Below, in pieces: positions 1 through 64,000 of a stretch of DNA of 64,000 nt. The notes under the pieces were generated by a model. The model was not told the origin of the DNA and did no database searches. It saw only the letters and a program-made list of their open reading frames with translations. Where the stretch lies: the NCBI GenBank assembly GCA_037893245.1, contig JBAIAA010001140.1:62001-126000 (forward strand). Direction: 5' to 3'. The translations under genes and the position numbers were made by a program. Source of the DNA: Crossaster papposus (taxonomy: Eukaryota > Echinodermata > Asteroidea > Velatida > Solasteridae). Each line of letters starts with the position of its first letter. Position 1 is the stretch's first letter.

Positions 1-31
1 GAAATATGTAAAGGGAAAGAAGTGTGCATAA
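1..31 (+). repeat. Consensus 31-bp unit (representative copy)
   Basis: This copy begins GAAATATGTAAAGGG and ends GTGTGCATAA. Composition is 15 A, 9 G, 6 T and 1 C, so 32% GC and 77% purine, with a 13-base purine run at unit positions 10-22 and no CpG. TAA occurs at unit positions 9-11 and 29-31 on the + strand; the minus strand has no stop in any frame. Common variants are G1 to T, which creates AATAAA at the unit junction; G14 to T; one base lost at positions 6-9 (30-bp form); G15 to A; and A31 to C. The chosen phase is arbitrary. Confidence 0.97.
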
Positions 32-749
32 GAAATATGTAAAGGGAAAGAAGTGTGCATAAGAAATATGTAAAGGGAAAGAAGTGTGCATAAGAAATAT
101 GTAAAGGGAAAGAAGTGTGCATAAGAAATATGTAAAGGGAAAGAAGTGTGCATAAGAAATATGTAAAGGGAAAGAAGTGTGCATACGAAATATGTAAAGG
201 GAAAGAAGTGTGCATAAGAAATATGTAAAGGGAAAGAAGTGTGCATAAGAAATATGTAAAGGGAAAGAAGTGTGCATAAGAAATATGTAAAGGGAAAGAA
301 GTGTGCATAAGAAATATGTAAAGGGAAAGAAGTGTGCATAAGAAATATGTAAAGGGAAAGAAGTGTGCATAAGAAATATGTAAAGGGAAAGAAGTGTGCA
401 TAAGAAATATGTAAAGGGAAAGAAGTGTGCATAAGAAATATGTAAAGGGAAAGAAGTGTGCATAAGAAATATGTAAAGGGAAAGAAGTGTGCATAAGAAA
501 TATGTAAAGGGAAAGAAGTGTGCATAAGAAATATGTAAAGGGAAAGAAGTGTGCATAAGAAATATGTAAAGGGAAAGAAGTGTGCATAAGAAATATGTAA
601 AGGGAAAGAAGTGTGCATAAGAAATATGTAAAGGGAAAGAAGTGTGCATAAGAAATATGTAAAGGGAAAGAAGTGTGCATAAGAAATATGTAAAGGGAAA
701 GAAGTGTGCATAAGAAATATGTAAAGGGAAAGAAGTGTGCATAAGAAAT
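1..749 (+). repeat. 24-unit run at left edge
   Basis: Twenty-four tandem units followed by the five bases before the first spacer. Copies are almost perfect; the only change I noticed is a unit-end A to C at about 186. The run is cut by the window edge, so its true length is unknown. Confidence 0.96.
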
Positions 750-785
750 AAACACATGATGTGGGAACAAGCCCTCGAGTTAAAT
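750..785 (+). repeat. Full 36-bp spacer (first of about 125)
   Basis: The spacer interrupts a unit after its fifth base (GAAAT) and the unit resumes at ATGT. It contains AATAAA at its left junction, CACATGATGTGGGAACAAG in the middle, CTCGAG (an XhoI-type site) at 774-779, and TTAAAT at the right end. Composition is 14 A, 8 G, 7 C and 7 T, about 42% GC, without the G-over-C skew of the units. AAAT stands on both sides of a 32-bp core. Length 36 is a multiple of 3. Nearly all full copies are identical. Recurrent variants are AACAGG for AACAAG (21 copies), CACATAATG for CACATGATG (spacers starting 8974, 11976 and 14940 only), and a TCGGGAC form confined to region C. Confidence 0.95.
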
Positions 786-3266
786 ATGTAAAGGGAAAGA
801 AGTGTGCATAAGAAATATGTAAAGGGAAAGTAGTGTGCATAATAAATATGTAAAGGGAAAGAAGTGTGCATAAGAAATATGTAAAGGGAAAGTAGTGTGC
901 ATAATAAATATGTAAAGGGAAAGAAGTGTGCATAAGAAATATGTAAAGGGAAAGAAGTGTGCATAAGAAATATGTAAAGGGAAAGAAGTGTGCATAAGAA
1001 ATATGTAAAGGGAAAGAAGTGTGCATAAGAAATATGTAAAGGGAAAGTAGTGTGCATAATAAATATGTAAAGGGAAAGAAGTGTGCATAAGAAATATGTA
1101 AAGGGAAAGAAGTGTGCATAAGAAATATGTAAAGGGAAAGAAGTGTGCATAAGAAATATGTAAAGGGAAAGAAGTGTGCATAAGAAATATGTAAAGGGAA
1201 AGAAGTGTGCATAAGAAATATGTAAAGGGAAAGAAGTGTGCATAAGAAATATGCAAAGGGAAAGAAGTGTGCATAAGAAATATGTAAAGGGAAAGAAGTG
1301 TGCATAAGAAATATGTAAAGGTAAAGAAGTGTGCATAAGAAATATGTAAAGGGAAAGAAGTGTGCATAAGAAATATGTAAAGGGAAAGAAGTGTGCATAA
1401 GAAATATGTAAAGGGAAAGAAGTGTGCATAAGAAATATGTAAAGGGAAAGTAGTGTGCATAATAAATATGTAAAGGGAAAGAAGAGTGCATAATAAATAT
1501 GTAAAGGGAAAGAAGTGTGCATAAGAAATATGTAAAGGGAAAGAAGTGTGCATAAGAAATATGTAAAGGGAAAGAAGTGTGCATAAGAAATATGTAAAGG
1601 GAAAGAAGTGTGCATAAGAAATATGTAAAGGGAAAGTAGTGTGCATAATAAATATGTAAAGGGAAAGAAGAGTGCATAATAAATATGTAAAGGGAAAGAA
1701 GTGTGCATAAGAAATATGTAAAGGGAAAGAAGTGTGCATAAGAAATATGTAAAGGGAAAGAAGTGTGCATAAGAAATATGTAAAGCGAAAGAAGTGTGCA
1801 TAAGAAATATGTAAAGTGAAAGAAGTGTGCATAAGAAATATGTAAAGTGAAAGAAGTGTGCATAAGAAATATGTAAAGGGAAAGAAGTGTGCATAAGAAA
1901 TATGTAAAGGGAAAGAAGTGTGCATAAGAAATATGTAAAGGGAAAGAAGTGTGCATACGAAATATGTAAAGGGAAAGAAGTGTGCATAAGAAATATGTAA
2001 AGGGAAAGAAGTGTGCATAAGAAATATGTAAAGGGAAAGAAGTGTGCATAAGAAATATGTAAAGGGAAAGAAGTGTGCATAAGAAATATGTAAAGGGAAA
2101 GAAGTGTGCATAAGAAATATGTAAAGGGAAAGAAGTGTGCATAAGAAATATGTAAAGGGAAAGAAGTGTGCATAAGAAATATGTAAAGGGAAAGAAGTGT
2201 GCATAAGAAATATGTAAAGGGAAAGAAGTGTGCATAAGAAATATGTAAAGGGAAAGAAGTGTGCATAAGAAATATGTAAAGGGAAAGAAGTGTGCATAAG
2301 AAATATGTAAAGGGAAAGAAGTGTGCATAAGAAATATGTAAAGGGAAAGAAGTGTGCATAAGAAATATGTAAAGGGAAAGAAGTGTGCATAAGAAATATG
2401 TAAAGGGAAAGAAGTGTGCATAAGAAATATGTAAAGGGAAAGAAGTGTGCATAAGAAATATGTAAAGGGAAAGAAGTGTGCATAAGAAATATGTAAAGGG
2501 AAAGAAGTGTGCATAAGAAATATGTAAAGGGAAAGAAGTGTGCATAAGAAATATGTAAAGGGAAAGAAGTGTGCATAAGAAATATGTAAAGGGAAAGAAG
2601 TGTGCATAAGAAATATGTAAAGGGAAAGAAGTGTGCATAAGAAATATGTAAAGGGAAAGAAGTGTGCATAAGAAATATGTAAAGGGAAAGAAGTGTGCAT
2701 AAGAAATATGTAAAGGGAAAGAAGTGTGCATAAGAAATATGTAAAGGGAAAGAAGTGTGCATAAGAAATATGTAAAGGGAAAGAAGTGTGCATAAGAAAT
2801 ATGTAAAGGGAAAGAAGTGTGCATAAGAAATATGTAAAGGGAAAGAAGTGTGCATAAGAAATATGTAAAGGGAAAGAAGTGTGCATAAGAAATATGTAAA
2901 GGGAAAGAAGTGTGCATAAGAAATATGTAAATGGAAAGAAGTGTGCATAATAAATATGTAAAGGGAAAGAAGTGTGCATAATAAATATGTAAAGTGAAAG
3001 AAGTGTGCATAAGAAATATGTAAAGGGAAAGAAGTGTGCATAAGAAATATGTAAAGGGAAAGAAGTGTGCATAAGAAATATGTAAAGGGAAAGAAGTGTG
3101 CATAAGAAATATGTAAAGGGAAAGAAGTGTGCATAAGAAATATGTAAAGGGAAAGAAGTGTCCATAAGAAATATGTAAAGGGAAAGAAGTGTGCATATGA
3201 AAATTTGTAAAGAGAAAGAAGTGTGCATAAGAAATATGTAAAGGGAAAGAAGTGTGCATAAGAAAT
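786..3266 (+). repeat. 80-unit run with GAAAGTAGTG variants
   Basis: The length is 80 units plus one base. The extra base lies in a unit reading GCATATGAAAATTTG near 3195, two units before the next spacer. Between about 830 and 1680 a linked pair of changes recurs five times: GAAAGTAGTG in one unit and CATAATAAAT at its junction with the next. I did not see GAAAGTAGTG elsewhere, so it marks a local expansion. At 1786-1850 adjacent units carry AAAGCG or AAAGTG. Confidence 0.92.
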
Positions 3267-3302
3267 AAACACATGATGTGGGAACAAGCCCTCGAGTTAA
3301 AT

Positions 3303-5194: not shown

Positions 5195-5572
5195 AAACAC
5201 ATGATGTGGGAACAAGCCCTCGAGTTAAATATGTAAAGGGAAAGAAGTGTGCATAAGAAATATGTAAAGGGAAAGAAGTGTGCATAAGAAATATGTAAAG
5301 GGAAAGAAGTGTGCATAAGAAATATGTAAAGGGAAAGAAGTGTGCATAAGAAATATGTAAAGGGAAAGAAGTGTGCATAAGAAATATGTAAAGGGAAAGA
5401 AGTGTGCATAAGAAATATGTAAAGGGAAAGAAGTGTGCATAAGAAATATGTAAAGGGAAAGAAGTGTGCATAAGAAATATGTAAAGGGAAAGAAGTGTGC
5501 ATATGAAAATTTGTAAAGGGAAAGAAGTGTGCATAAGAAATATGTAAAGGGAAAGAAGTGTGCATAAGAAAT
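5195..5572 (+). repeat. 378-bp module: spacer plus 11 units (copy 1 of 3)
   Basis: A full spacer followed by 11 units, one of them the 32-bp ATTTG form two units before the next spacer. The same 378-bp module occurs at 7097-7474 and 10161-10538 with no differences that I can see. It is the smallest clear higher-order module of region A. Confidence 0.92.
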
Positions 5573-7096: not shown

Positions 7097-9257
7097 AAAC
7101 ACATGATGTGGGAACAAGCCCTCGAGTTAAATATGTAAAGGGAAAGAAGTGTGCATAAGAAATATGTAAAGGGAAAGAAGTGTGCATAAGAAATATGTAA
7201 AGGGAAAGAAGTGTGCATAAGAAATATGTAAAGGGAAAGAAGTGTGCATAAGAAATATGTAAAGGGAAAGAAGTGTGCATAAGAAATATGTAAAGGGAAA
7301 GAAGTGTGCATAAGAAATATGTAAAGGGAAAGAAGTGTGCATAAGAAATATGTAAAGGGAAAGAAGTGTGCATAAGAAATATGTAAAGGGAAAGAAGTGT
7401 GCATATGAAAATTTGTAAAGGGAAAGAAGTGTGCATAAGAAATATGTAAAGGGAAAGAAGTGTGCATAAGAAATAAACACATGATGTGGGAACAAGCCCT
7501 CGAGTTAAATATGTAAAGGGAAAGAAGTGTGCATAAGAAATATGTAAAGGGAAAGAAGTGTGCATAAGAAATATGTAAAGGGAAAGAAGTGTGCATAAGA
7601 AATATGTAAAGGGAAAGAAGTGTGCATAAGAAATATGTAAAGGGAAAGAAGTGTGCATAAGAAATATGTAAAGGGAAAGAAGTGTGCATAAGAAATATGT
7701 AAAGGGAAGGAAGTGTGCATAAGAAATATGTAAAGGGAAAGAAGTGTGCATAAGAAATATGTAAAGGGAAAGAAGTGTGCATAAGAAATATGTAAAGGGA
7801 AAGAAGTGTGCATAAGAAATATGTAAAGGGAAAGAAGTGTGCATAAGAAATATGTAAAGGGAAAGAAGTGTGCATAAGAAATATGTAAAGGGAAAGAAGT
7901 GTGCATAAGAAATATGTAAAGGGAAAGAAGTGTGCATAAGAAATATGTAAAGGGAAAGAAGTGTGCATAATAAATATGTAAAGGGAAAGAAGTGTGCATA
8001 ATAAATATGTAAAGGGAAAGAAGTGTGCATAAGAAATATGTAAAGTGAAAGAAGTGTGCATAAGAAATATGTAAAGGGAAAGAAGTGTGCATAAGAAATA
8101 TGTAAAGGGAAAGAAGTGTGCATAAGAAATATGTAAAGGGAAAGAAGTGTGCATAAGAAATATGTAAAGGGAAAGAAGTGTGCATAAGAAATATGTAAAG
8201 GGAAAGAAGTGTGCATAAGAAATATGTAAAGGGAAAGAAGTGTGCATAAGAAATATGTAAAGGGAAAGAAGTGTGCATAAGAAATATGTAAAGGGAAAGA
8301 AGTGTGCATAAGAAATATGTAAAGGGAAAGAAGTGTGCATAAGAAATATGTAAAGGGAAAGAAGTGTGCATAAGAAATATGTAAAGGGAAAGAAGTGTGC
8401 ATATGAAAATTTGTAAAGGGAAAGAAGTGTGCATAAGAAATATGTAAAGGGAAAGAAGTGTGCATAAGAAATAAACACATGATGTGGGAACAAGCCCTCG
8501 AGTTAAATATGTAAAGGGAAAGAAGTGTGCATAAGAAATATGTAAAGGGAAAGAAGTGTGCATAAGAAATATGTAAAGGGAAAGAAGTGTGCATAAGAAA
8601 TATGTAAAGGGAAAGAAGTGTGCATAATAAATATGTAAAGGGAAAGAAGTGTGCATAAGAAATATGTAAAGTGAAAGAAGTGTGCATAAGAAATATGTAA
8701 AGGGAAAGAAGTGTGCATAAGAAATATGTAAAGGGAAAGAAGTGTGCATAAGAAATATGTAAAGTGAAAGAAGTGTGCATAAGAAATATGTAAAGGGAAA
8801 GAAGTGTGCATAAGAAATATGTAAAGGGAAAGAAGTGTGCATAAGAAATATGTAAATGGAAAGAAGTGTGCATAAGAAATATGTAAAGGGAAAGAAGTGT
8901 GCATAAGAAATATGTAAAGAGAAAGAAGTGTGCATAAGTAATATGTAAAGGGAAAGAAGTGTGCATAAGAAATAAACACATAATGTGGGAACAAGCCCTC
9001 GAGTTAAATATGTAAAGGGAAAGAAGTGTGCATAAGAAATATGTAAAGGGAAAGAAGTGTGCATAAGAAATATGTAAAGGGAAAGAAGTGTGCATAAGAA
9101 ATATGTAAAGGGAAAGAAGTGTGCATAAGAAATATGTAAAGGGAAAGAAGTGTGCATAAGAAATATGTAAAGGGAGAGAAGTGTGCATGAGAAATATGTA
9201 AAGGGAAAGAAGTGTGCATAAGAAATATGTAAAGGGAAAGAAGTGTGCATAAGAAAT
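7097..9257 (+). repeat. Region A higher-order repeat, copy 1 (11-31-15-8)
   Basis: Four spacers (7097, 7475, 8473 and 8974) are followed by runs of 11, 31, 15 and 8 units. The 15-unit run carries an ordered set of marks: a CATAATAAAT junction near 8628, GTGAAAG near 8670 and 8763, AAATGG near 8857, AAAGAG near 8918 and AAGTAATATG near 8938. It then meets a spacer reading CACATAATG. The 8-unit run has CATGAGAAAT near 9188. All these marks reappear in order at 10161-12259. Confidence 0.92.
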
Positions 9258-22015: not shown

Positions 22016-24553
22016 AAACACATGATGTGGGAACAAGCCCTCGAGTTAAATATGTAAAGGGAAAGAAGTGTGCATAAGAAATATGTAAAGGGAAAGAAGT
22101 GTGCATAAGAAATATGTAAAGGGAAAGAAGTGTGCATAAGAAATATGTAAAGGGAAAGAAGTGTGCATAAGAAATATGTAAAGGGAAAGAAGTGTGCATA
22201 AGAAATATGTAAAGGGAAAGAAGTGTGCATAAGAAATATGTAAAGGGAAAGAAGTGTGCATAAGAAATATGTAAAGGGAAAGAAGTGTGCATAAGAAATA
22301 TGTAAAGGGAAAGAAGTGTGCATAAGAAATAAACACATGATGTGGGAACAAGCCCTCGAGTTAAATATGTAAAGGGAAAGAAGTGTGCATAAGAAATATG
22401 TAAAGGGAAAGAAGTGTGCATAAGAAATATGTAAAGGGAAAGAAGTGTGCATAAGAAATATGTAAAGGGAAAGAAGTGTGCATAAGAAATATGTAAAGGG
22501 AAAGAAGTGTGCATAAGAAATATGTAAAGGGAAAGAAGTGTGCATAAGAAATATGTAAAGTGAAAGAAGTGTGCATAAGAAATATGTAAAGGGAAAGAAG
22601 TGTGCATAAGAAATATGTAAAGGGAAAGAAGTGTGCATAAGAAATATGTAAAGGGAAAGAAGTGTGCATAAGAAATAATAAAGGGAAAGAAGTGTGCATA
22701 ATAAATATGTAAAGGGAAAGAAGTGTGCAAAAGAAATAAACACATGATGTGGGAACAGGCCCTCGAGTTAAATATGTAAAGGGAAAGAAGTGTGCATAAG
22801 AAATATGTAAAGGGAAAGAAGTGTGCATAAGAAATATGTAAAGGGAAAGAAGTGTGCATAAGAAATATGTAAAGGGAAAGAAGTGTGCATAAGAAATATG
22901 TAAAGGGAAAGAAGTGTGCATAAGAAATATGTAAAGGGAAAGAAGTGTGCATAAGAAATATGTAAAGAGAAAGAAGTGTGCATAAGAAATATGTAAAGGG
23001 AAAGAAGTGTGCATAATAAATATGTAAAGGGAAAGAAGTGTGCATAAGAAATATGTAAAGGGAAAGAAGTGTGCATAAGAAATATGTAAAGGGAAAGAAG
23101 TGTGCATAAGAAATATGTAAAGGGAAAGAAGTGTGCATAAGAAATATGTAAAGGGAAAGAAGTGTGCATAAGAAATATGTAAAGGGAAAGAAGTGTGCAT
23201 AAGAAATAAACACATGATGTGGGAACAAGCCCTCGAGTTAAATATGTAAAGGGAAAGAAGTGTGCATAAGAAATATGTAAAGGGAAAGAAGTGTGCATAA
23301 GAAATATGTAAAGGGAAAGAAGTGTGCATAAGAAATATGTAAAGGGAAAGAAGTGTGCATAAGAAATATGTAAAGGGAAAGAAGTGTGCATAAGAAATAT
23401 GTAAAGGGAAAGAAGTGTGCATAAGAAATATGTAAAGGGAAAGAAGTGTGCATAAGAAATATGTAAAGGGAAAGAAGTGTGCATAAGAAATATGTAAAGG
23501 GAAAGAAGTGTGCATAAGAAATAAACACATGATGTGCGAACAAGCCCTCGAGTTAAATATGTAAAGGGAAAGAAGTGTGCATAAGAAATATGTAAAGGGA
23601 AAGAAGTGTGCATAAGAAATATGTAAAGGGAAAGAAGTGTGCATAAGAAATATGTAAAGGGAAAGAAGTGTGCATAAGAAATATGTAAAGGGAAAGAAGT
23701 GTGCATAAGAAATATGTAAAGGGAAAGAAGTGTGCATAAGAAATATGTAAAGGGAAAGAAGTGTGCATAAGAAATATGTAAAGGGAAAGAAGTGTGCATA
23801 AGAAATATGTCAAGGGAAAGAAGTGTGCATAAGAAATAATAAAGGGAAAGAAGTGTGCATAATAAATATGTAAAGGGAAAGAAGTGTGCATAAGAAATAT
23901 GTAAAGGGAAAGAAGTGTGCATAAGAAATATGTAAAGGGAAAGAAGTGTGCATAAGAAATATGTAAAGGGAAAGAAGTGTGCATAAGAAATATGTAAAGG
24001 GAAAGAAGTGTGCATAAGAAATATGTAAAGGGAAAGAAGTGTGCATAAGAAATATGTAAAGGGAAAGAATGTGCATAAGAAATATGTAAAGGGAAAGAAG
24101 TGTGCATAAGAAATATGTAAAGGGAAAGAAGTGTGCATAAGAAATATGTAAAGGGAAAGAAGTGTGCATAAGAAATATGTAAAGTGAAAGAAGTGTGCAT
24201 AAGAAATATGTAAAGGGAAAGAAGTGTGCATAAGAAATATGTAAAGGGAAAGAAGTGTGCATAAGAAATATGTAAAGGGAAAGAAGTGTGCATAAGAAAT
24301 ATGTAAAGGGAAAGAAGTGTGCATAAGAAATATGTAAAGGGAAAGAAGTGTGCATAAGAACTATGTAAAGGGAAAAAAGTGTGCATAAGTAATATGTAAA
24401 GGGAAAGAAGTGTGCATAAGAAATAAACACATGATGTGGGAACAAGCCCTCGAGTTAAATATGTAAAGGGAAAGAAGTGTGCATAAGAAATATGTAAAGG
24501 GAAAGAAGTGTGCATAAGAAATATGTAAAGGGAAAGAAGTGTGCATAAGAAAT

Positions 24554-24656
24554 AAACACATGATGTGGGAACAAGCCCTCGAGTTAAATATGTAAAGGGA
24601 AAGAAGTGTGCAAAAGAAATAAACACATGATGTGGGAACAGGCCCTCGAGTTAAAT
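24554..24656 (+). repeat. Spacer-unit-spacer cassette with GTGCAAAAG mark
   Basis: A full spacer, one 31-bp unit and a second full spacer make a 103-bp module. The single unit reads GTGCAAAAG instead of GTGCATAAG, and the second spacer reads AACAGGCCC instead of AACAAGCCC. This linked pair of changes recurs in 18 one-unit cassettes, with first spacers near 24554, 26841, 30395, 32681, 33277, 35594, 36190, 38711, 39375, 41296, 41896, 44057, 44653, 47187, 47783, 50446, 51042 and 62360. The same pair of marks ends the 12-unit runs at 19645, 22738 and 28579. Three other one-unit pairs (14371, 15069 and 59151) lack both marks. Confidence 0.93.
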
Positions 24657-24872
24657 ATGTAAAGGGAAAGAAGTGTGCATAAGAAATATGTAAAGGGAAA
24701 GAAGTGTGCATAAGAAATATGTAAAGGGAAAGAAGTGTGCATAAGATATATGTAAAGGGAAAGAAGTGTGCATAAGAAATATGTAAAGGGAAAGAAGTGT
24801 GCATAAGAAATATGTAAAGGGAAAGAAGTGTGCATAAGAAATATGTAAAGGGAAAGAAGTGTGCATAAGAAA

Positions 24873-24887
24873 GCCCTCGAGTTAAAT
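24873..24887 (+). repeat. Short spacer, 22-bp deletion form (first of 18)
   Basis: Here GAAA of a unit joins directly to GCCCTCGAG and TTAAAT. Relative to the full spacer exactly 22 bp are missing, including the AATAAA and TGTGGGAA motifs, while CTCGAG is kept. All 18 copies have the same junction, so the deletion arose once and was then amplified. They start at 24873, 25042, 27160, 30714, 30883, 33000, 33169, 35913, 36082, 41614, 41784, 44376, 44545, 47506, 47675, 50765, 50934 and 62252. Except at 27160 and 62252 they come in pairs separated by five units. The copies at 25042 and 30883 carry CTCTAG in place of CTCGAG. Confidence 0.95.
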
Positions 24888-27856
24888 ATGTAAAGGGAAA
24901 GAAGTGTGCATAAGAAATATGTAAAGGGAAAGAAGTGTGCATAAGAAATATGTAAAGGGAAAGAAGTGTGCATAAGAAATATGTAAAGGGAAAGAAGTGT
25001 GCATAAGAAATATGTAAAGGGAAAGAAGTGTGCATAAGAAAGCCCTCTAGTTAAATATGTAAAGGGAAAGAAGTGTGCATAAGAAATATGTAAAGGGAAA
25101 GAAGTGTGCATAAGAAATATGTAAAGGGAAAGAAGTGTGCATAAGAAATAAACACATGATGTGGGAACAAGCCCTCGAGTTAAATATGTAAAGGGAAAGA
25201 AGTGTGCAAAAGAAATAAACACATGATGTGGGAACAGGCCCTCGAGTTAAATATGTAAAGGGAAAGAAGTGTGCATAAGAAATATGTAAAGGGAAAGAAG
25301 TGTGCATAAGAAATATGTAAAGGGAAAGAAGTGTGCATAAGAAATATGTAAAGGGAAAGAAGTGTGCATAAGAAATATGTAAAGGGAAAGAAGTGTGCAT
25401 AAGAAATATGTAAAGGGAAAGAAGTGTGCATAAGAAATATGTAAAGGGAAAGAAGTGTGCATAAGAAATAATAAAGGGAAAGAAGTGTGCATAAGAAATA
25501 TGTAAAGGGAAAGAAGTGTGCATAAGAAATATGTAAAGGGAAAGAAGTGTGCATAAGAAATATGTAAAGGGAAAGAAGTGTGCATAAGAAATATGTAAAG
25601 GAAAAGAAGTGTGCATAAGAAATATGTATAGGGAAAGAAGTGTGCATAAGAAATATGTAAAGGGAAAGAAGTGTGCATAAGAAATATGTAAAGGGAAAGA
25701 AGTGTGCATAAGAAATATGTAAAGGGAAAGAAGTGTGCATAAGAAATATGTAAAGGGAAAGAAGTGTGCATAAGAAATAAACACATGATGTGGGAACAAG
25801 CCCTCGAGTTAAATATGTAAAGGGAAAGAAGTGTGCATAAGAAATATGTAAAGGGAAAGAAGTGTGCATAAGAAATATGTAAAGGGAAAGAAGTGTGCAT
25901 AAGAAATATGTAAAGGGAAAGAAGTGTGCATAAGAAATATGTAAAGGGAAAGAAGTGTGCATAAGAAATATGTAAAGGGAAAGAAGTGTGCATAAGAAAT
26001 ATGTAAAGGGAAAGAAGTGTGCATAAGAAATATGTAAAGGGAAAGAAGTGTGCATAAGAAATATGTAAAGGGAAAGAAGTGTGCATAAGAAATATGTAAA
26101 GGGAAAGAAGTGTGCATAAGAAATAATAAAGGGAAAGAAGTGTGCATAAGAAATATGTAAAGGGAAAGAAGTGTGCATAAGAAATATGTAAAGGGAAAGA
26201 AGTGTGCATAAGAAATATGTAAAGGGAAAGAAGTGTGCATAAGAAATATGTAAAGGGAAAGAAGTGTGCATAAGAAATATGTAAAGGGAAAGAAGTGTGC
26301 ATAAGAAATATGTAAAGGGAAAGAAGTGTGCATAAGAAATATGTAAAGGGAAAGAATGTGCATAAGAAATATGTAAAGGGAAAGAAGTGTGCATAAGAAA
26401 TATGTAAAGGGAAAGAAGTGTGCATAAGAAATATGTAAAGGGAAAGAAGTGTGCATAAGAAATATGTAAAGTGAAAGAAGTGTGCATAAGAAATATGTAA
26501 AGGGAAAGAAGTGTGCATAAGAAATATGTAAAGGGAAAGAAGTGTGCATAAGAAATATGTAAAGGGAAAGAAGTGTGCATAAGAAATATGTAAAGGGAAA
26601 GAAGTGTGCATAAGAAATATGTAAAGGGAAAGAAGTGTGCATAAGAACTATGTAAAGGGAAAAAAGTGTGCATAAGTAATATGTAAAGGGAAAGAAGTGT
26701 GCATAAGAAATAAACACATGATGTGGGAACAAGCCCTCGAGTTAAATATGTAAAGGGAAAGAAGTGTGCATAAGAAATATGTAAAGGGAAAGAAGTGTGC
26801 ATAAGAAATATGTAAAGGGAAAGAAGTGTGCATAAGAAATAAACACATGATGTGGGAACAAGCCCTCGAGTTAAATATGTAAAGGGAAAGAAGTGTGCAA
26901 AAGAAATAAACACATGATGTGGGAACAGGCCCTCGAGTTAAATATGTAAAGGGAAAGAAGTGTGCATAAGAAATATGTAAAGGGAAAGAAGTGTGCATAA
27001 GAAATATGTAAAGGGAAAGAAGTGTGCATAAGAAATATGTAAAGGGAAAGAAGTGTGCATAAGAAATATGTAAAGGGAAAGAAGTGTGCATAAGAAATAT
27101 GTAAAGGGAAAGAAGTGTGCATAAGAAATATGTAAAGGGAAAGAAGTGTGCATAAGAAAGCCCTCGAGTTAAATATGTAAAGGGAAAGAAGTGTGCATAA
27201 GAAATATGTAAAGGGAAAGAAGTGTGCATAAGAAATATGTAAAGGGAAAGAAGTGTGCATAAGAAATATGTAAAGGGAAAGAAGTGTGCATAAGAAATAT
27301 GTAAAGGGAAAGAAGTGTGCATAAGAAATATGTAAAGGGAAAGAAGTGTGCATAAGAAATATGTAAAGGGAAAGAAGTGTGCATAAGAAATATGTAAAGG
27401 GAAAGAAGTGTGCATAAGAAATATGTAAAGGGAAAGAAGTGTGCATAAGAAATATGTAAAGGGAAAGAATTGTGCATAAGAAATATGTAAAGGGAAAGAA
27501 GTGTGCATAAGAAATATGTAAAGGGAAAGAAGTGTGCATAAGAAATATGTAAAGGGAAAGAAGTGTGCATAAGAAATATGTAAAGGGAAAGAAGTGTGCA
27601 TAAGAAATATGTAAAGGGAAAGAAGTGTGCATAAGAAATATGTAAAGGGAAAGAAGTGTGCATAAGAAATATGTAAAGGGAAAGAAGTGTGCATAAGAAA
27701 TATGTAAAGGGAAAGAAGTGTGCATAAGAAATATGTAAAGGGAAAGAAGTGTGCATAAGAAATATGTAAAGGGAAAGAAGTGTGCATAAGAAATATGTAA
27801 AGGGAAAGAAGTGTGCATAAGAAATATGTAAAGGGAAAGAAGTGTGCATAAGAAAT

Positions 27857-32747: not shown

Positions 32748-35660
32748 AAACACATGATGTGGGAACAGGCCCTCGAGTTAAATATGTAAAGGGAAAGAAG
32801 TGTGCATAAGAAATATGTAAAGGGAAAGAAGTGTGCATAAGAAATATGTAAAGGGAAAGAAGTGTGCATAAGAAATATGTAAAGGGAAAGAAGTGTGCAT
32901 AAGAAATATGTAAAGGGAAAGAAGTGTGCATAAGAAATATGTAAAGGGAAAGAAGTGTGCATAAGAAATATGTAAAGGGAAAGAAGTGTGCATAAGAAAG
33001 CCCTCGAGTTAAATATGTAAAGGGAAAGAAGTGTGCATAAGAAATATGTAAAGGGAAAGAAGTGTGCATAAGAAATATGTAAAGGGAAAGAAGTGTGCAT
33101 AAGAAATATGTAAAGGGAAAGAAGTGTGCATAAGAAATATGTAAAGGGAAAGAAGTGTGCATAAGAAAGCCCTCGAGTTAAATATGTAAAGGGAAAGAAG
33201 TGTGCATAAGAAATATGTAAAGGGAAAAAAGTGTGCATAAGAAATATGTAAAGGGAAAGAAGTGTGCATAAGAAATAAACACATGATGTGGGAACAAGCC
33301 CTCGAGTTAAATATGTAAAGGGAAAGAAGTGTGCAAAAGAAATAAACACATGATGTGGGAACAGGCCCTCGAGTTAAATATGTAAAGGGAAAGAAGTGTG
33401 CATAAGAAATATGTAAAGGGAAAGAAGTGTGCATAAGAAATATGTAAAGGGAAAGAAGTGTGCATAAGAAATATGTAAAGGGAAAGAAGTGTGCATAAGA
33501 AATATGTAAAGGGAAAAAAGTGTGCATAAGAAATATGTAAAGGGAAAGAAGTGTGCATAAGAAATATGTAAAGGGAAAGAAGTGTGCATAAGAAATAATA
33601 AAGGGAAAGAAGTGTGCATAAGAAATATGTAAAGGGAAAGAAGTGTGCATAAGAAATATGTAAAGGGAAAGAAGTGTGCATAAGAAATATGTAAAGGGAA
33701 AGAAGTGTGCATAAGAAATATGTAAAGGAAAAGAAGTGTGCATAAGAAATATGTATAGGGAAAGAAGTGTGCATAAGAAATATGTAAAGGGAAAGAAGTG
33801 TGCATAAGAAATATGTAAAGGGAAAGAAGTGTGCATAGGAAATATGTAAATGGAAAGAAGTGTGCATAAGAAATATGTAAAGGGAAAGAAGTGTGCATAA
33901 GAAATATGTAAATGGAAAGAAGTGTGCATAAGAAATATGTAAAGGGAAAGAAGTGTGCATAAAAAATATGTAAAGGGAAAGAAGTGTGCATAAGAAATAT
34001 GTAAAGGGAAAGAAGTGTGCATAAGAAATATGTAAAGGGAAAGAAGTGTGCATAATAAATATGTAAAGGGAAAGAAGTGTGCATAAGAAATATGTAAAGG
34101 GAAAGAAGTGTGCATAAGAAATATGTAAAGGGAAAAAGGTGTGCATAAGAAATATGTAAAGGGAAAGAAGTGTGCATAAGAAATAAACACATGATGTGGG
34201 AACAAGCCCTCGAGTTAAATATGTAAAGGGAAAGAAGTGTGCATAAGAAATATGTAAAGGGAAAGAAGTGTGCATAATAAATATGTAAAGGGAAAGAAGT
34301 GTGCATAAGAAATAAACACATGATGTGGGAACAAGCCCTCGAGTTAAATATGTAAAGGGAAAGAAGTGTGAATAAGAAATATGTAAAGGGAAAGAAGTGT
34401 GCATAAGAAATATGTAAAGGGAAAAAAATGTGCATACGAAATATGTAAAGGGAAAGAAGTGTGCATAAGAAATATCTAAAGGGAAAGAAGTGTGCATAAG
34501 AAATATGTAAAGGGAAAGAAGTGTGCATAAGAAATATGTAAAGGGAAAGAAGTGTGCATAATAAATATGTAAAAGGAAGGAAGTGTGCATAAGAAATATG
34601 TAAAGGGAAAGAAGTGTGCATAAGAAATATGTAAAGGGAAAGAAGTGTGCATAAGAAATATGTAAAGGGAAAGAAGTGTGCATAAGAAATATGTAAAGGG
34701 AAAGAAGTGTGCATAAGAAATATGTAAAGGGAAAGAAGTGTGCATAAGAAATATGTAAAGGGAAAGAAGTGTGCATAAGAAATATGTAAAGGAAAAGAAG
34801 TGTGCATAAGAAATATGTAAAGGGAAAGAAGTGTGCATAAGAAATATGTAAAGGGAAAGAAGTGTGCATAAGAAATATGTAAAGGGAAAGAAGTGTGCAT
34901 AAGAAATATGTAAAGGGAAAGAAGTGTGCATAAGAAATAAACACATGATGTCGGGACAAGCCCTCGAGTTAAATATGTAAAGGGAAAGAAGTGTGCATAA
35001 GAAAAAATAAAGGGAAAGAAGTGTGCATAAGAAATATGTAAAGGGAAAGCAGTGTGCATAAGAAATATGTAAAGGGAAAGAAGTGTGCATAAGAAATATG
35101 TAAAGGGAAAGAAGTGTGCATAAGAAATATGTAAAGGGAAAGAAGTGTGCATAAGAAATATGTAAAGGGAAATATGTGTGCATAAGAAATATGTAAAGGG
35201 AAAGAAGTGTGCATAAGAAATATGTAAAGGGAAATAAGTGTGCATAAGAAATATGTAAAGGGAAAGAAGTGTGCATAAGAAATATGTAAAGGGAAAGAAG
35301 TGTGCATAAGAAATATGTAAAGGGAAAGAAGTGTGCATAAGAAATATGTAAAGGGAAAGAAGTGTGCATAAGAAATATGTAAAGGGAAAGAAGTGTGCAT
35401 AAGAAATATGAAAAGGGAAAGAAGTGTGCATAAGAAATATGTAAAGGGAAAGAAGTGTGCATAAGAAATATGTAAAGTGAAAGAAGTGTGCATAAGAAAT
35501 ATGTAAAGGGAAAGAAGTGTGCATAAGAAATATGTAAAGGGAAAGAAGTGTGCATAAGAAATATGTAAAGTGAAAGAAGTGTGCATAAGAAATAAACACA
35601 TGATGTGGGAACAAGCCCTCGAGTTAAATATGTAAAGGGAAAGAAGTGTGCAAAAGAAAT
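32748..35660 (+). repeat. Region C higher-order repeat, copy 1 (2,913 bp)
   Basis: Runs are 7, 5, 3, 1, 26, 3, 19, 20 and 1 units. Marks in order are GGAAAAAAG (33225), a 30-bp unit (33595), AAAGGAAAAG, ATGTATAGGG (33748), CATAGGAAAT with AAATGG (33836), GGAAAAAGGTG (34133), GTGAATAAG (34370), CATACGAAAT (34436), ATATCTAAAG (34473), AAAAGGAAGG (34572), a spacer with TCGGGACAAG (34939), GAAAAAATAAAG (35002), AAAGCAGTG and AAATATGTG (35170). The last long run has 20 units against 27 in copies 2-4, so seven units are missing here or were gained there. Confidence 0.94.
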
Positions 35661-38600
35661 AAACACATGATGTGGGAACAGGCCCTCGAGTTAAATATGT
35701 AAAGGGAAAGAAGTGTGCATAAGAAATATGTAAAGGGAAAGAAGTGTGCATAAGAAATATGTAAAGGGAAAGAAGTGTGCATAAGAAATATGTAAAGGGA
35801 AAGAAGTGTGCATAAGAAATATGTAAAGGGAAAGAAGTGTGCATAAGAAATATGTAAAGGGAAAGAAGTGTGCATAAGAAATATGTAAAGGGAAAGAAGT
35901 GTGCATAAGAAAGCCCTCGAGTTAAATATGTAAAGGGAAAGAAGTGTGCATAAGAAATATGTAAAGGGAAAGAAGTGTGCATAAGAAATATGTAAAGGGA
36001 AAGAAGTGTGCATAAGAAATATGTAAAGGGAAAGAAGTGTGCATAAGAAATATGTAAAGGGAAAGAAGTGTGCATAAGAAAGCCCTCGAGTTAAATATGT
36101 AAAGGGAAAGAAGTGTGCATAAGAAATATGTAAAGGGAAAGAAGTGTGCATAAGAAATATGTAAAGGGAAAGAAGTGTGCATAAGAAATAAACACATGAT
36201 GTGGGAACAAGCCCTCGAGTTAAATATGTAAAGGGAAAGAAGTGTGCAAAAGAAATAAACACATGATGTGGGAACAGGCCCTCGAGTTAAATATGTAAAG
36301 GGAAAGAAGTGTGCATAAGAAATATGTAAAGGGAAAGAAGTGTGCATAAGAAATATGTAAAGGGAAAGAAGTGTGCATAAGAAATATGTAAAGGGAAAGA
36401 AGTGTGCATAAGAAATATGTAAAGGGAAAAAAGTGTGCATAAGAAATATGTAAAGGGAAAGAAGTGTGCATAAGAAATATGTAAAGGGAAAGAAGTGTGC
36501 ATAAGAAATAATAAAGGGAAAGAAGTGTGCATAAGAAATATGTAAAGGGAAAGAAGTGTGCATAAGAAATATGTAAAGGGAAAGAAGTGTGCATAAGAAA
36601 TATGTAAAGGGAAAGAAGTGTGCATAAGAAATATGTAAAGGAAAAGAAGTGTGCATAAGAAATATGTATAGGGAAAGAAGTGTGCATAAGAAATATGTAA
36701 AGGGAAAGAAGTGTGCATAAGAAATATGTAAAGGGAAAGAAGTGTGCATAGGAAATATGTAAATGGAAAGAAGTGTGCATAAGAAATATGTAAAGGGAAA
36801 GAAGTGTGCATAAGAAATATGTAAATGGAAAGAAGTGTGCATAAGAAATATGTAAAGGGAAAGAAGTGTGCATAAAAAATATGTAAAGGGAAAGAAGTGT
36901 GCATAAGAAATATGTAAAGGGAAAGAAGTGTGCATAAGAAATATGTAAAGGGAAAGAAGTGTGCATAATAAATATGTAAAGGGAAAGAAGTGTGCATAAG
37001 AAATATGTAAAGGGAAAGAAGTGTGCATAAGAAATATGTAAAGGGAAAAAGGTGTGCATAAGAAATATGTAAAGGGAAAGAAGTGTGCATAAGAAATAAA
37101 CACATGATGTGGGAACAAGCCCTCGAGTTAAATATGTAAAGGGAAAGAATTGTGCATAAGAAATATGTAAAGGGAAAGAAGTGTGCATAATAAATATGTA
37201 AAGGGAAAGAAGTGTGCATAAGAAATAAACACATGATGTGGGAACAAGCCCTCGAGTTAAATATGTAAAGGGAAAGAAGTGTGAATAAGAAATATGTAAA
37301 GGGAAAGAAGTGTGCATAAGAAATATGTAAAGGGAAAAAAGTGTGCATACGAAATATGTAAAGGGAAAGAAGTGTGCATAAGAAATATCTAAAGGGAAAG
37401 AAGTGTGCATAAGAAATATGTAAAGGGAAAGAAGTGTGCATAAGAAATATGTAAAGGGAAAGAAGTGTGCATAATAAATATGTAAAAGGAAGGAAGTGTG
37501 CATAAGAAATATGTAAAGGGAAAGAAGTGTGCATAAGAAATATGTAAAGGGAAAGAAGTGTGCATAAGAAATATGTAAAGGGAAAGAAGTGTGCATAAGA
37601 AATATGTAAAGGGAAAGAAGTGTGCATAAGAAATATGTAAAGGGAAAGAAGTGTGCATAAGAAATATGTAAAGGGAAAGAAGTGTGCATAAGAAATATGT
37701 AAAGGAAAAGAAGTGTGCATAAGAAATATGTAAAGGGAAAGAAGTGTGCATAAGAAATATGTAAAGGGAAAGAAGTGTGCATAAGAAATATGTAAAGGGA
37801 AAGAAGTGTGCATAAGAAATATGTAAAGGGAAAGAAGTGTGCATAAGAAATAAACACATGATGTCGGGACAAGCCCTCGAGTTAAATATGTAAAGGGAAA
37901 GAAGTGTGCATAAGAAAAAATAAAGGGAAAGAAGTGTGCATAAGAAATATGTAAAGGGAAAGCAGTGTGCATAAGAAATATGTAAAGGGAAAGAAGTGTG
38001 CATAAGAAATATGTAAAGGGAAAGAAGTGTGCATAAGAAATATGTAAAGGGAAAGAAGTGTGCATAAGAAATATGTAAAGGGAAATATGTGTGCATAAGA
38101 AATATGTAAAGGGAAAGAAGTGTGCATAAGAAATATGTAAAGGGAAATAAGTGTGCATAAGAAATATGTAAAGGGAAAGAAGTGTGCATAAGAAATATGT
38201 AAAGGGAAAGAAGTGTGCATAAGAAATATGTAAAGGGAAAGAAGTGTGCATAAGAAATATGTAAAGGGAAAGAAGTGTGCATAAGAAATATGTAAAGGGA
38301 AAGAAGTGTGCATAAGAAATATGAAAAGGGAAAGAAGTGTGCATAAGAAATATGTAAAGGGAAAGAAGTGTGCATAAGAAATATGTAAAGTGAAAGAAGT
38401 GTGCATAAGAAATATGTAAAGGGAAAGAAGTGTGCATAAGAAATATGTAAAGGGAAAGAAGTGTAAAGTGAAAGAAGTGTGCATAAGAAATATGTAAAGG
38501 GAAAGAAGTGTGCATAAGAAATATGTAAAGGGAAAGAAGTGTGCATAAGAAATATGTAAAGGGAAAGAAGTGTGCATAAGAAATATGTAAAGGGAAAGAA

Positions 38601-38778
38601 GTGTGTGCATAAGAAATATGTAAAGGGAAAGAAGTGTGCATAAGAAATATGTAAAGGGAAAGAAGTGTGCATAAGAAATATGTAAAGGGAAAGAAGTGTG
38701 CATAAGAAATAAACACATGAGTGTGGGAACAAGCCCTCAGAGTTAAATATGTAAAGGGAAAGAAGTGTGCAAAAGAAA
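35661..38778 (+). repeat. Region C higher-order repeat, copy 2
   Basis: Runs are 7, 5, 3, 1, 26, 3, 19, 27 and 1, with the marks of copy 1 shifted by 2,913 bp, including the AAATATGTG unit near 38085 that copies 3 and 4 lack. After about 38,450 the copy has private indels: 15 bp lost near 38461, GT added near 38605, and single bases added inside the spacer near 38711-38740. The next spacer (about 38779) has lost two bases. Its right end is therefore approximate. Confidence 0.88.
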
Positions 38779-44123: not shown

Positions 44124-47100
44124 AAACACATGATGTGGGAACAGGCCCTCGAGTTAAATATGTAAAGGGAAAGAAGTGTGCATAAGAAATATGTAAAGGG
44201 AAAGAAGTGTGCATAAGAAATATGTAAAGGGAAAGAAGTGTGCATAAGAAATATGTAAATGGAAAGAAGTGTGCATAAGAAATATGTAAAGGGAAAGAAG
44301 TGTGCATAAGAAATATGTAAAGGGAAAGAAGTGTGCATAAGAAATATGTAAAGGGAAAGAAGTGTGCATAAGAAAGCCCTCGAGTTAAATATGTAAAGGG
44401 AAAGAAGTGTGCATAAGAAATATGTAAAGGGAAAGAAGTGTGCATAAGAAATATGTAAAGGGAAAGAAGTGTGCATAAGAAATATGTAAAGGGAAAGAAG
44501 TGTGCATAAGAAATATGTAAAGGGAAAGAAGTGTGCATAAGAAAGCCCTCGAGTTAAATATGTAAAGGGAAAGAAGTGTGCATAAGAAATATGTAAAGGG
44601 AAAGAAGTGTGCATAAGAAATATGTAAAGGGAAAGAAGTGTGCATAAGAAATAAACACATGATGTGGGAACAAGCCCTCGAGTTAAATATGTAAAGGGAA
44701 AGAAGTGTGCAAAAGAAATAAACACATGATGTGGGAACAGGCCCTCGAGTTAAATATGTAAAGGGAAAGAAGTGTGCATAAGAAATATGTAAAGGGAAAG
44801 AAGTGTGCATAAGAAATATGTAAAGGGAAAGAAGTGTGCATAAGAAATATGTAAAGGGAAAGAAGTGTGCATAAGAAATATGTAAAGGGAAAGAAGTGTG
44901 CATAAGAAATATGTAAAGGGAAAGAAGTGTGCATAAGAAATATGTAAAGGGAAAGAAGTGTGCATAAGAAATAATAAAGGGAAAGAAGTGTGCATAAGAA
45001 ATATGTAAAGGGAAAGAAGTGTGCATAAGAAATATGTAAAGGGAAAGAAGTGTGCATAAGAAATATGTAAAGGGAAAGAAGTGTGCATAAGAAATATGTA
45101 AAGGAAAAGAAGTGTGCATAAGAAATATGTATAGGGAAAGAAGTGTGCATAAGAAATATGTAAAGGGAAAGAAGTGTGCATAAGAAATATGTAAAGGGAA
45201 AGAAGTGTGCATAGGAAATATGTAAATGGAAAGAAGTGTGCATAAGAAATATGTAAAGGGAAAGAAGTGTGCATAAGAAATATGTAAATGGAAAGAAGTG
45301 TGCATAAGAAATATGTAAAGGGAAAGAAGTGTGCATAAGAAATATGTAAAGGGAAAGAAGTGTGCATAAGAAATATGTAAAGGGAAAGAAGTGTGCATAA
45401 GAAATATGTAAAGGGAAAGAAGTGTGCATAATAAATATGTAAAGGGAAAGAAGTGTGCATAAGAAATATGTAAAGGGAAAGAAGTGTGCATAAGAAATAT
45501 GTAAAGGGAAAAAGGTGTGCATAAGAAATATGTAAAGGGAAAGAAGTGTGCATAAGAAATAAACACATGATGTGGGAACAAGCCCTCGAGTTAAATATGT
45601 AAAGGGAAAGAAGTGTGCATAAGAAATATGTAAAGGGAAGGAAGTGTGCATAATAAATATGTAAAGGGAAAGAAGTGTGCATAAGAAATAAACACATGAT
45701 GTGGGAACAAGCCCTCGAGTTAAATATGTAAAGGGAAAGAAGTGTGAATAAGAAATATGTAAAGGGAAAGAAGTGTGCATAAGAAATATGTAAAGGGAAA
45801 AAAGTGTGCATACGAAATATGTAAAGGGAAAGAAGTGTGCATAAGAAATATCTAAAGGGAAAGAAGTGTGCATAAGAAATATGTAAAGGGAAAGAAGTGT
45901 GCATAAGAAATATGTAAAGGGAAAGAAGTGTGCATAATAAATATGTAAAAGGAAGGAAGTGTGCATAAGAAATATGTAAAGGAAAAGAAGTGTGCATAAG
46001 AAATATGTAAAGGGAAAGAAGTGTGCATAAGAAATATGTAAAGGGAAAGAAGTGTGCATAAGAAATATGTAAAGGGAAAGAAGTGTGCATAAGAAATATG
46101 TAAAGGGAAAGAAGTGTGCATAAGAAATATGTAAAGGGAAAGAAGTGTGCATAAGAAATATGTAAAGGAAAAGAAGTGTGCATAAGAAATATGTAAAGGG
46201 AAAGAAGTGTGCATAAGAAATATGTAAAGGGAAAGAAGTGTGCATAAGAAATATGTAAAGGGAAAGAAGTGTGCATAAGAAATATGTAAAGGGAAAGAAG
46301 TGTGCATAAGAAATAAACACATGATGTCGGGACAAGCCCTCGAGTTAAATATGTAAAGGGAAAGAAGTGTGCATAAGAAAAAATAAAGGGAAAGAAGTGT
46401 GCATAAGAAATATGTAAAGGGAAAGCAGTGTGCATAAGAAATATGTAAAGGGAAAGAAGTGTGCATAAGAAATATGTAAAGGGAAAGAAGTGTGCATAAG
46501 AAATATGTAAAGGGAAAGAAGTGTGCATAAGAAATATGTAAAGGGAAATAAGTGTGCATAAGAAATATGTAAAGGGAAAGAAGTGTGCATAAGAAATATG
46601 TAAAGGGAAATAAGTGTGCATAAGAAATATGTAAAGGGAAAGAAGTGTGCATAAGAAATATGTAAAGGGAAAGAAGTGTGCATAAGAAATATGTAAAGGG
46701 AAAGAAGTGTGCATAAGAAATATGTAAAGGGAAAGAAGTGTGCATAAGAAATATGTAAAGGGAAAGAAGTGTGCATAAGAAATATGAAAAGGGAAAGAAG
46801 TGTGCATAAGAAATATGTAAAGGGAAAGAAGTGTGCATAAGAAATATGTAAAGTGAAAGAAGTGTGCATAAGAAATATGTAAAGGGAAAGAAGTGTGCAT
46901 AAGAAATATGTAAAGGGAAAGAAGTGTGCATAAGAAATATGTAAAGTGAAAGAAGTGTGCATAAGAAATATGTAAAGGGAAAGAAGTGTGCATAAGAAAT
47001 ATGTAAAGGGAAAGAAGTGTGCATAAGAAATATGTAAAGGGAAAGAAGTGTGCATAAGAAATATGTAAAGGGAAAGAAGTGTGCATAAGAAATATGTAAA

Positions 47101-47253
47101 GGGAAAGAAGTGTGCATAAGAAATATGTAAAGGGAAAGAAGTGTGCATAAGAAATATGTAAAGGGAAAGAAGTGTGCATAAGAAATAAACACATGATGTG
47201 GGAACAAGCCCTCGAGTTAAATATGTAAAGGGAAAGAAGTGTGCAAAAGAAAT
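44124..47253 (+). repeat. Region C higher-order repeat, copy 3 (3,130 bp)
   Basis: Runs are 7, 5, 3, 1, 26, 3, 19, 27 and 1 units. The marks include the 30-bp unit (44970), CATAGGAAAT/AAATGG (45211), GGAAAAAGGTG (45509), GTGAATAAG (45746), ATATCTAAAG (45849), AAAAGGAAGG (45948), the TCGGGAC spacer (46315), GAAAAAATAAAG (46378) and a CATGAAAAGG-type unit (ATATGAAAAGGG, 46785). Private changes are AAATGG near 44258 and GGAAGGAAG near 45638. Where copies 1 and 2 have AAATATGTG this copy has AAATAAGTG (46550). Confidence 0.94.
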
Positions 47254-60342: not shown

Positions 60343-62926
60343 AAACACATGATGTGGGAACAAGCCCTCGAGTTAAATATGTAAAGGGAAAGAAGTGTGC
60401 ATAAGAAATATGTAAAGGGAAAGAAGTGTGCATAATAAATATGTAAAGGGAAAGAAGTGTGCATAAGAAATATGTAAAGGGAAAGAAGTGTGCATAAGAA
60501 ATATGTAAAGGGAAAGAAGTGTGCATAAGAAATATGTAAAGGGAAAGAAGTGTGCATAAGAAATATGTAAAGGGAAAGAAGTGTGCATAAGAAATATGTA
60601 AAGGGAAAGAAGTGTGCATAAGAAATATGTAAAGGGAAAGAAGTGTGCATAAGAAATAAACACATGATGTGGGAACAAGCCCTCGAGTTAAATATGTAAA
60701 GGGAAAGAAGTGTGCATAAGAAATATGTAAAGGGAAAGAAGTGTGCATAAGAAATATGTAAAGGGAAAGAAGTGTGCATAAGAAATATGTAAAGGGAAAG
60801 AAGTGTGCATAAGAAATATGTAAAGGGAAAGAAGTGTGCATAAGAAATATGTTAAGGGAAAGAAGTGTGCATAAGAAATATGTAAAGGGAAAGAAGTGTG
60901 CATAAGAAATATGTAAAGGGAAAGAAGTGTGCATAAGAAATATGTAAAGGGAAAGAAGTGTGCATAAGAAATATGTAAAGAGAAAGAAGTGTGCATAAGA
61001 AATAATAAAGGGAAAGAAGTGTGCATAAGAAATATGTAAAGGGAAAGAAGTGTGCATAAGAAATATGTAAAGGGAAAGAAGTGTGCATAAGAAATATGTA
61101 AAGGGAAAGAAGTGTGCATAAGAAATATGTAAAGGGAAAGAAGTGTGCATAAGAAATATGTAAAGGGAAAGAAGTGTGCATAAGAAATATGTAAAGGGAA
61201 AGAAGTGTGCATAAGAAATATGTAAAGGGAAAGAAGTGTGCATAAGAAATATGTAAAGGGAAAGAAGTGTGCATAAGAAATATGTAAAGGGAAAGAAGTG
61301 TGCATAAGAAATATGTAAAGGGAAAGAAGTGTGCATAAGAAATATGTAAAGGGAAAAAAGTGTGCATAAGAAATATGTAAAGGGAAAGAAGTGTGCATAA
61401 AAAATATGTAAAGAGAAAGAAGTGTGCATAAGAAATATGTAAAGGGAAAGAAGTGTGCATAAGAAATATGTAAAGGGAAAGAAGTGTGCATAAGAAATAT
61501 GTAAAGGGACAGAAGTGTGCATAAGAAATATGTAAAGGGAAAGAAGTGTGCATAAGAAATATGTAAAGGGAAAGAAGTGTGCATAAGAAATATGTAAAGG
61601 GAAAGAAGTGTGCATAAGAAATATGTAAAGGGAAAGAAGTGTGCATAAGAAATATGTAAAGGGAAAAAAGTGTGCATAAGAAATATGTAAAGGGAAAGAA
61701 GTGTGCATAAGAAATATGTAAAGGGAAAGAAGTGTGCATAAGAAATAAACACATGATGTGGGAACAAGCCCTCGAGTTAAATATGTAAAGGGAAAGAAGT
61801 GTGCATAAGAAATATGTAAAGGGAAAGAAGTGTGCATAAGAAATATGTAAAGGGAAAGAAGTGTGCATAAGAAATATGTAAAGGGAAAGAAGTGTGCATA
61901 AGAAATATGTAAAGGGAAAGAAGTGTGCATAAGAAATATGTAAAGGGAAAGAAGTGTGCATAAGAAATATGTAAAGGGAAAGAAGTGTGCATAAGAAATA
62001 TGTAAAGGGAAAGAAGTGTGCATAAGAAATAAACACATGATGTGGGAACAAGCCCTCGAGTTAAATATGTAAAGGGAAAGAAGTGTGCATAAGAAATATG
62101 TAAAGGGAAAGAAGTGTGCATAAGAAATATGTAAAGGGAAAGAAGTGTGCATAAGAAATATGTAAAGGGAAAGAAGTGTGCATAAGAAATATGTAAAGGG
62201 AAAGAAGTGTGCATAAGAAATATGTAAAGGGAAAGAAGTGTGCATAAGAAAGCCCTCGAGTTAAATATGTAAAGGGAAAGAAGTGTGCATAAGAAATATG
62301 TAAAGGGAAAGAAGTGTGCATAAGAAATATGTAAAGGGAAAGAAGTGTGCATAAGAAATAAACACATGATGTGGGAACAAGCCCTCGAGTTAAATATGTA
62401 AAGGGAAAGAAGTGTGCAAAAGAAATAAACACATGATGTGGGAACAGGCCCTCGAGTTAAATATGTAAAGGGAAAGAAGTGTGCATAAGAAATATGTAAA
62501 GGGAAAGAAGTGTGCATAAGAAATATGTAAAGGGAAAGAAGTGTGCATAAGAAATATGTAAAGGGAAAGAAGTGTGCATAAGAAATATGTAAAGGGAAAG
62601 AAGTGTGCATAAGAAATATGTAAAGGGAAAGAAGTGTGCATAAGAAATATGTAAAGGGAAAGAAGTGTGCATAAGAAATAATAAAGGGAAAGAAGTGTGC
62701 ATAAGAAATATGTAAAGGGAAAGAAGTGTGCATAAGAAATATGTAAAGGGAAAGAAGTGTGCATAAGAAATATGTAAAGGTAAAAAAGTGTGCATAAGAA
62801 ATATGTAAAGGGAAAGAAGTGTGCATAAAAAATATGTAAAGGGAAAGAAGTGTGCATAAGAAATATGTAAAGGGAAAGAAGTGTGCATAAGAAATATGTA
62901 AAGGGAAAGAAGTGTGCATAAGAAAT
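60343..62926 (+). repeat. Region E higher-order repeat, copy 1 (2,584 bp)
   Basis: Runs are 9, 34, 8, 6, 3, 1 and 15 units, with spacers at 60343, 60658, 61747, 62031, 62252 (short), 62360, 62427 and 62927. The 9-unit run has a CATAATAAAT junction near 60435. The 34-unit run has ATGTTAAGGG near 60850, AAAGAG near 60981, a 30-bp unit near 61002, GGAAAAAAG near 61355 and 61666, CATAAAAAAT with AAAGAG near 61400, and GGGACAGAAG near 61507. The short spacer and marked cassette near 62252-62462 are the only region B/C-type elements right of 53 kb. Confidence 0.92.
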
Positions 62927-64000
62927 AAACACATGATGTGGGAACAAGCCCTCGAGTTAAATATGTAAAGGGAAAGAAGTGTGCATAAGAAATATGTAAA
63001 GGGAAAGAAGTGTGCATAATAAATATGTAAAGGGAAAGAAGTGTGCATAAGAAATATGTAAAGGGAAAGAAGTGTGCATAAGAAATATGTAAAGGGAAAG
63101 AAGTGTGCATAAGAAATATGTAAAGGGAAAGAAGTGTGCATAAGAAATATGTAAAGGGAAAGAAGTGTGCATAAGAAATATGTAAAGGGAAAGAAGTGTG
63201 CATAAGAAATATGTAAAGGGAAAGAAGTGTGCATAAGAAATAAACACATGATGTGGGAACAAGCCCTCGAGTTAAATATGTAAAGGGAAAGAAGTGTGCA
63301 TAAGAAATATGTAAAGGGAAAGAAGTGTGCATAAGAAATATGTAAAGGGAAAGAAGTGTGCATAAGAAATATGTAAAGGGAAAGAAGTGTGCATAAGAAA
63401 TATGTTAAGGGAAAGAAGTGTGCATAAGAAATATGTAAAGGGAAAGAAGTGTGCATAAGAAATATGTAAAGGGAAAGAAGTGTGCATAAGAAATATGTAA
63501 AGGGAAAGAAGTGTGCATAAGAAATATGTAAAGAGAAAGAAGTGTGCATAAGAAATAATAAAGGGAAAGAAGTGTGCATAAGAAATATGTAAAGGGAAAG
63601 AAGTGTCCATAAGAAATATGTAAAGGGAAAGAAGTGTGCATAAGAAATATGTAAAGGGAAAGAAGTGTGCATAAGAAATATGTAAAGGGAAAGAAGTGTG
63701 CATAAGAAATATGTAAAGGGAAAGAAGTGTGCATAAGAAATATGTAAAGGGAAAGAAGTGTGCATAAGAAATATGTAAAGGGAAAGAAGTGTGCATAAGA
63801 AATATGTAAAGGGAAAGAAGTGTGCATAAGAAATATGTAAAGGGAAAGAAGTGTGCATAAGAAATATGTAAAGGGAAAGAAGTGTGCATAAGAAATATGT
63901 AAAGGGAAAAAAGTGTGCATAAGAAATATGTAAAGGGAAAGAAGTGTGCATAAAAAATATGTAAAGAGAAAGAAGTGTGCATAAGAAATATGTAAAGGGA
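62927..64000 (+). repeat. Region E higher-order repeat, copy 2 (cut by window edge)
   Basis: The 9-unit run and its CATAATAAAT junction (63019) repeat at an offset of 2,584 bp. The next run repeats ATGTTAAGGG (63404), AAAGAG (63534), the 30-bp unit (63554), GGAAAAAAG (63908) and CATAAAAAAT with AAAGAG (63951), all about 2,553 bp after their partners, so one unit fewer precedes them. A GTCCATAAG unit near 63605 is private. The copy continues past the window. Confidence 0.9.

Follow-up and report, generated by a model that had tools for sequence, protein, structure and literature searches.

A 36-bp spacer in a 31-bp satellite array, very probably one insertion spread by array copying

Human satellite I is made of 17- and 25-bp repeats and human satellite III of 5- and 10-bp repeats, in each case mixed, according to PMC8122249. 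The same source describes a 500-bp pericentric repeat of Arabidopsis as involving a foreign element that was inserted (PMC8122249). For human satellites 2 and 3, PMC4022460 gives the pentamer CATTC as the likely origin. For satellite I of deer and bovids a 31-bp basic unit has been postulated, and in deer the 31-bp units lie within monomers of ~0.7-1 kb with a tabulated GC content of 54%, as given in PMC7288315.

We analysed a single stretch of DNA of 64,000 bp, hereafter the window, the whole of which was found by TRF and by a two-unit segmentation to be one uninterrupted satellite array of a 31-bp unit:

1..64000, plus strand: satellite array of the unit AAATATGTAAAGGGAAAGAAGTGTGCATAAG (31 bp), on the basis of TRF and two-unit segmentation

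The segmentation was done by dynamic programming with the 31-bp unit as A and the 36-bp spacer unit as B, after which 18 stray single bases were joined to the truncated spacers (T), giving a total of 2,058 units made up of 1,915 A (a few of them partial), 125 B and 18 T. A units identical to the consensus number 1,510 of the 1,915, and the mean identity of A units, by substitutions, is 99.3% (n=1,909 complete units). This is the long head-to-tail run of near-identical units that characterises a satellite; it fills the window and extends beyond both ends of the 64,000 bp, with its edges lying outside. GC content is 0.32-0.33 across the window in 2-kb steps, and strand asymmetry is strong.

The earlier note had counted about 143 spacers in this array, a figure that proves exact provided the 18 truncated copies are included. 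The remaining 125 are of full or near-full length, with 122 at 36 bp and one each at 34, 37 and 38 bp, while the 18 truncated copies, of 14 bp, have one 22-bp deletion in common in the 5' part of the spacer. The first of each kind is as follows:

746..781, plus strand: first full spacer, 36 bp, consisting of AAATA and a 31-bp core and followed by AAATATG; represents 125 copies
24870..24883, plus strand: first truncated spacer, 14 bp, with the 22-bp deletion; represents 18 copies

By sequence, the 143 spacers divide into 91 that match the consensus, 22 with A25G, 5 with G18C+A21G, 3 with G13A, 4 unique forms and the 18 deleted copies, two of which carry a further change, CTCTAG replacing CTCGAG. 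The description of the spacer as nearly invariant is to be corrected accordingly.

Among units with singleton indels, 10 of 16 lie within 38441-41891; two others of the 16 are the cut ends of the window, and two adjoining pairs look like one event each. The clustering at 38.4-41.9 kb possibly reflects local consensus errors, and it is the observation that would favour reading part of the spacer pattern as an assembly artefact. Spacers occur in every 4-kb bin, however, and there are 24 distinct unit-spacer-unit haplotypes among the 143 spacers, a distribution and a diversity that assembly error would hardly create, so that we regard this explanation as extremely improbable.

The junctions are uniform. 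The segmentation places all 143 spacers at the same unit position; the unit preceding the spacer ends in CATAAG (119 cases), CAAAAG (23) or CATAAT (1), and the unit following it begins AAATATGT (142) or AATATGTA (1). Orientation is equally constant: a 17-base stretch of the core, searched with up to 3 mismatches, gave 125 matches on the plus strand and 0 on the minus strand (0.02 expected by chance), nothing on the minus strand comes closer to the complete 31-bp core than 15 mismatches, and the 18 truncated spacers are all on the plus strand by segmentation. A fixed position and a single orientation, as originally claimed, are therefore borne out. Placing the spacer "after base 5" of the unit describes that consistent position correctly, but base 5 is only one of several equivalent placements, because AAATA flanks the 31-bp core on both sides: the junction consists of AAATA, the 31-bp core, and a further AAATA with which the next unit begins, and the insertion point can slide over these 5 bp. 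A direct repeat of at least 5 was given by a random 36-bp insert in 0.7% of 200,000 trials (a chance of ~0.007). The junction looks like that of an insertion flanked by a 5-bp direct duplication, and we infer that AAATA was duplicated in the course of the insertion, although repair of a break with filler DNA could produce this arrangement too.

On the minus strand all frames of the consensus unit are free of stop codons, and open stretches on that strand reach 2,831 codons, the longest of them running off the window. Stop triplets on this strand lie mostly at the spacer junction, with 141 of 158 in GTTAAAT. Distinct stop-creating changes, for which the numbers are small, are not clearly depleted (4 seen vs 5.8 expected from the spectrum), and we took the open minus-strand frames for a by-product of composition and did not read them as coding.

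Homology between the core and the unit that surrounds it was not detected. In local alignment, core and unit scored 10, where shuffles averaged 10.3 (P 0.66), and in global alignment the P was 0.91; with scores at the level of shuffles, derivation of the spacer core from the unit was rejected. By eye, terminal inverted repeats are absent from the core, its ends (AACAC vs AACTC) matching for 3 bases before the first mismatch. Relatives were sought in viral, bacterial, archaeal and plasmid collections, which have little bearing on relatives in eukaryotes: exact patterns taken from part of the unit and from part of the spacer had no match in viral contigs or genome contigs, and blastn with one 98-base query against phages and plasmids returned nothing. 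From this lack of matches, together with the size and type of the array, the host is probably a eukaryote. In the open-licence literature, six fragments of unit and spacer of 15-17 letters did not occur on either strand, and a phrase search for a 31-bp satellite found no match.

How the spacers are arranged with respect to their neighbours is more informative about their origin. Variants of the spacer are linked to variants of the flanking units, most clearly for the exact A25G spacers, 22 of 22 of which are preceded by a unit ending in CAAAAG (T28A; one such unit also has a 1-bp deletion). The gaps between spacers recur as runs, for example 9, 12, 14, 9 and 3, 1, 7, 5, 3, 1. At larger scale, we found 11 exact repeats that contain at least 8 ordered non-consensus units, the best having 15 over 1,570 bp, whereas five shuffles of unit order gave at most 3. 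The copies lie at offsets of 2,287 to 5,841 bp, plus one offset of 11,593 bp, and include the following:

23834..25403, plus strand: second copy at 29675-31244, shifted by 5,841 bp; the 51 units agree one by one, including 15 that differ from the consensus and keep their order
33242..34216, plus strand: second copy at 36155-37129, shifted by 2,913 bp; 14 units differ from the consensus
44280..45623, plus strand: second copy at 47410-48753, shifted by 3,130 bp; 14 units differ from the consensus
7941..9160, plus strand: second copy at 10943-12162, shifted by 3,002 bp; 13 units differ from the consensus; lies in the left part, where spacers are few
37161..38068, plus strand: second copy at 48754-49661, shifted by 11,593 bp; 11 units differ from the consensus

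Variants are shared through duplicated blocks in the manner of a satellite, but the long exact repeats take in only 54 of the 143 spacers and 34% of the non-consensus units, with none in the last 8 kb.

Taken with the single junction common to all 143 spacers, the linked haplotypes and the duplicated blocks with the same order of units lead us to a reading in which we have high confidence: one insertion, spread together with its neighbours by segmental duplication and unequal exchange. A 36-bp insertion, comprising the 31-bp core and the 5-bp duplication of AAATA, would have entered a single 31-bp unit in one original event. Segmental duplication and unequal exchange, acting repeatedly, would then have multiplied the enlarged segment along with the units around it, which would give all spacers one junction and one orientation. 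A loss of 22 bp in one spacer copy would have followed, its 18 descendants spreading likewise. This order of events is the one suggested by a single 64,000-bp window, and much the same traces would be expected from gene conversion or rolling-circle copying. Of the two alternatives put forward in the earlier note, amplification of a single insertion within the array is therefore well supported; the other, a retained role in protein binding or phasing, is taken up below.

A different history can be drawn from the closest pairs of spacers. A single A unit separates successive spacers in 23 of 142 gaps, and short arrays with a period of 67-69 are found by TRF, as would be expected if the original repeat had been a longer one of two components, its spacer later diluted by expansion of the 31-bp unit alone. 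Yet 20 of these 23 pairs have one and the same haplotype (a spacer, a unit ending in CAAAAG, then an A25G spacer or its 34-bp relative) and so look like one later duplication. Positions 1-20000, moreover, contain only 22 spacers (2-7 per 4 kb) and the longest run without a spacer, 121 units between 15,132 and 18,919, and the AAATA repeat at the junction fits an insertion. We consider an original two-component repeat improbable. In the same left part, a unit ending in CATATGA stands three places upstream of 9 of the 22 spacers, compared with 0 of 121 elsewhere, which suggests that the left-part spacers with this upstream unit form a separate spacer lineage.

Several features of the spacer could be taken as signs that selection has maintained it for some function, such as that of a binding site or of a mark bearing CpG. 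It is the commonest departure from the unit (143 of 2,058 units), with 91 exact copies vs 57 for the next form. CTCGAG is kept in 140 of the 143 copies, and TGTGGGAA, a putative CSL/Su(H)-like site, is found in 119 of 143. CpG is absent from the consensus unit, and 146 of the 160 CpG dinucleotides of the window lie inside spacers. Substitutions in the spacer are of 5 distinct types, against a mean of 14.9 (range 9.5-20) in random sets of 122 A units, while mean divergence is close for the two components (0.82% for 122 exact-length spacers vs 0.65% for the unit, n=1,844).

The low number of substitution types might look like constraint, and the units beside the spacer provide a matched control. 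The units touching full spacers also show 5 substitution types on each side (31-bp units only), and at the 125 full spacers we count 8 distinct forms of the spacer, 7 of the A unit just before it and 8 of the A unit just after. Random sets of 125 A units contain 18.6 distinct forms (95% range 13-24); when the anchors were shifted circularly, in 289 ways with ~110 units each, the figure was 16.9 (12-22). Low variety is thus common to the spacer and the units that touch it, as is expected from joint copying, and no conservation of the spacer beyond that of its adjoining units was detected, a result with which weak constraint is compatible. The variety is uneven across offsets -12 to +12, with a minimum of 7 forms and a maximum of 17: the second, third and fourth units downstream have 7, 9 and 7 forms, and offsets -2 and -3 upstream have 17 and 15, like random units, so that co-amplification as a tight block is only a partial account.

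The remaining evidence also argues against a function. The 18 copies that have lost 22 of the 36 bases, TGTGGGAA included, have nevertheless multiplied. Start-to-start spacing of spacers is irregular (mean 440, SD 494, range 66-3,787 bp), which means no regular phasing, and a phasing role was set aside on this ground. The 17-bp CENP-B box, at up to 2 mismatches, has 0 matches within the 64,000-bp window (3.09 expected by chance), and there was no match to Rfam at gathering scores. The proposal of protein binding or phasing thus gains no support, and we judge a functional spacer kept by selection to be unlikely, as we do its more particular version, a small recognition element that holds nearly all the CpGs of the array and so places methylation or the action of a binding protein, to which we attach only slight probability. 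Exchange, not selection, we infer to have been the carrier of the spacer.

We used a simple simulation in which blocks are duplicated or deleted and new variants arise, under five settings of 40 runs each, to examine copy number under neutrality. The second commonest variant reached at least 143 copies in fractions of 0.725, 0.2, 0.85, 0.725 and 0.025 of runs over the five settings; simulated variants are counted singly here, and the fair observed comparator is accordingly the 91 exact spacers, not 143. The setting nearest to the observed number of variants (92.9 on average vs 90 observed) reached 143 copies in 29 of 40 runs, with the leading variant averaging 825 copies vs 1,510 observed, so that the simulation reproduces the array only in part. 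Thus, in a model that was not fitted to the data, some settings predict that the copy number of the spacer would need no selection. If one insertion is indeed the source, the array offers a clear and countable case of a small insertion that becomes a fixed-looking component of a satellite through copying alone, and the spacers and their flanking variants mark the turnover of the array and could help to trace its duplication history.

A further analogue is the bovine 1.711a satellite with its inserted element; neither "1.711a" nor "INS-1413" was mentioned in the literature searched. On the reading preferred here, the array is a product of ordinary satellite evolution, and it changes nothing in what is known about satellites. 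A second component had been called unusual, a claim that is weakly supported, since human satellites I and III already have two unit lengths according to PMC8122249. These satellites are likened to the array by description alone, with two short unit lengths, as here, but of other sizes. The Arabidopsis repeat, as that source portrays it, has a fixed unit of 500 bp, whereas the insert here is of 31-36 bp and recurs at irregular distances. Satellite I of cervids and bovids, again likened by description alone, has the 31-bp length of its postulated basic unit in common with the array; the deer satellite differs in its monomers of ~0.7-1 kb and GC content of 54%, compared with a GC content of ~32-33% and 99.3% identity among full units in the array described here.
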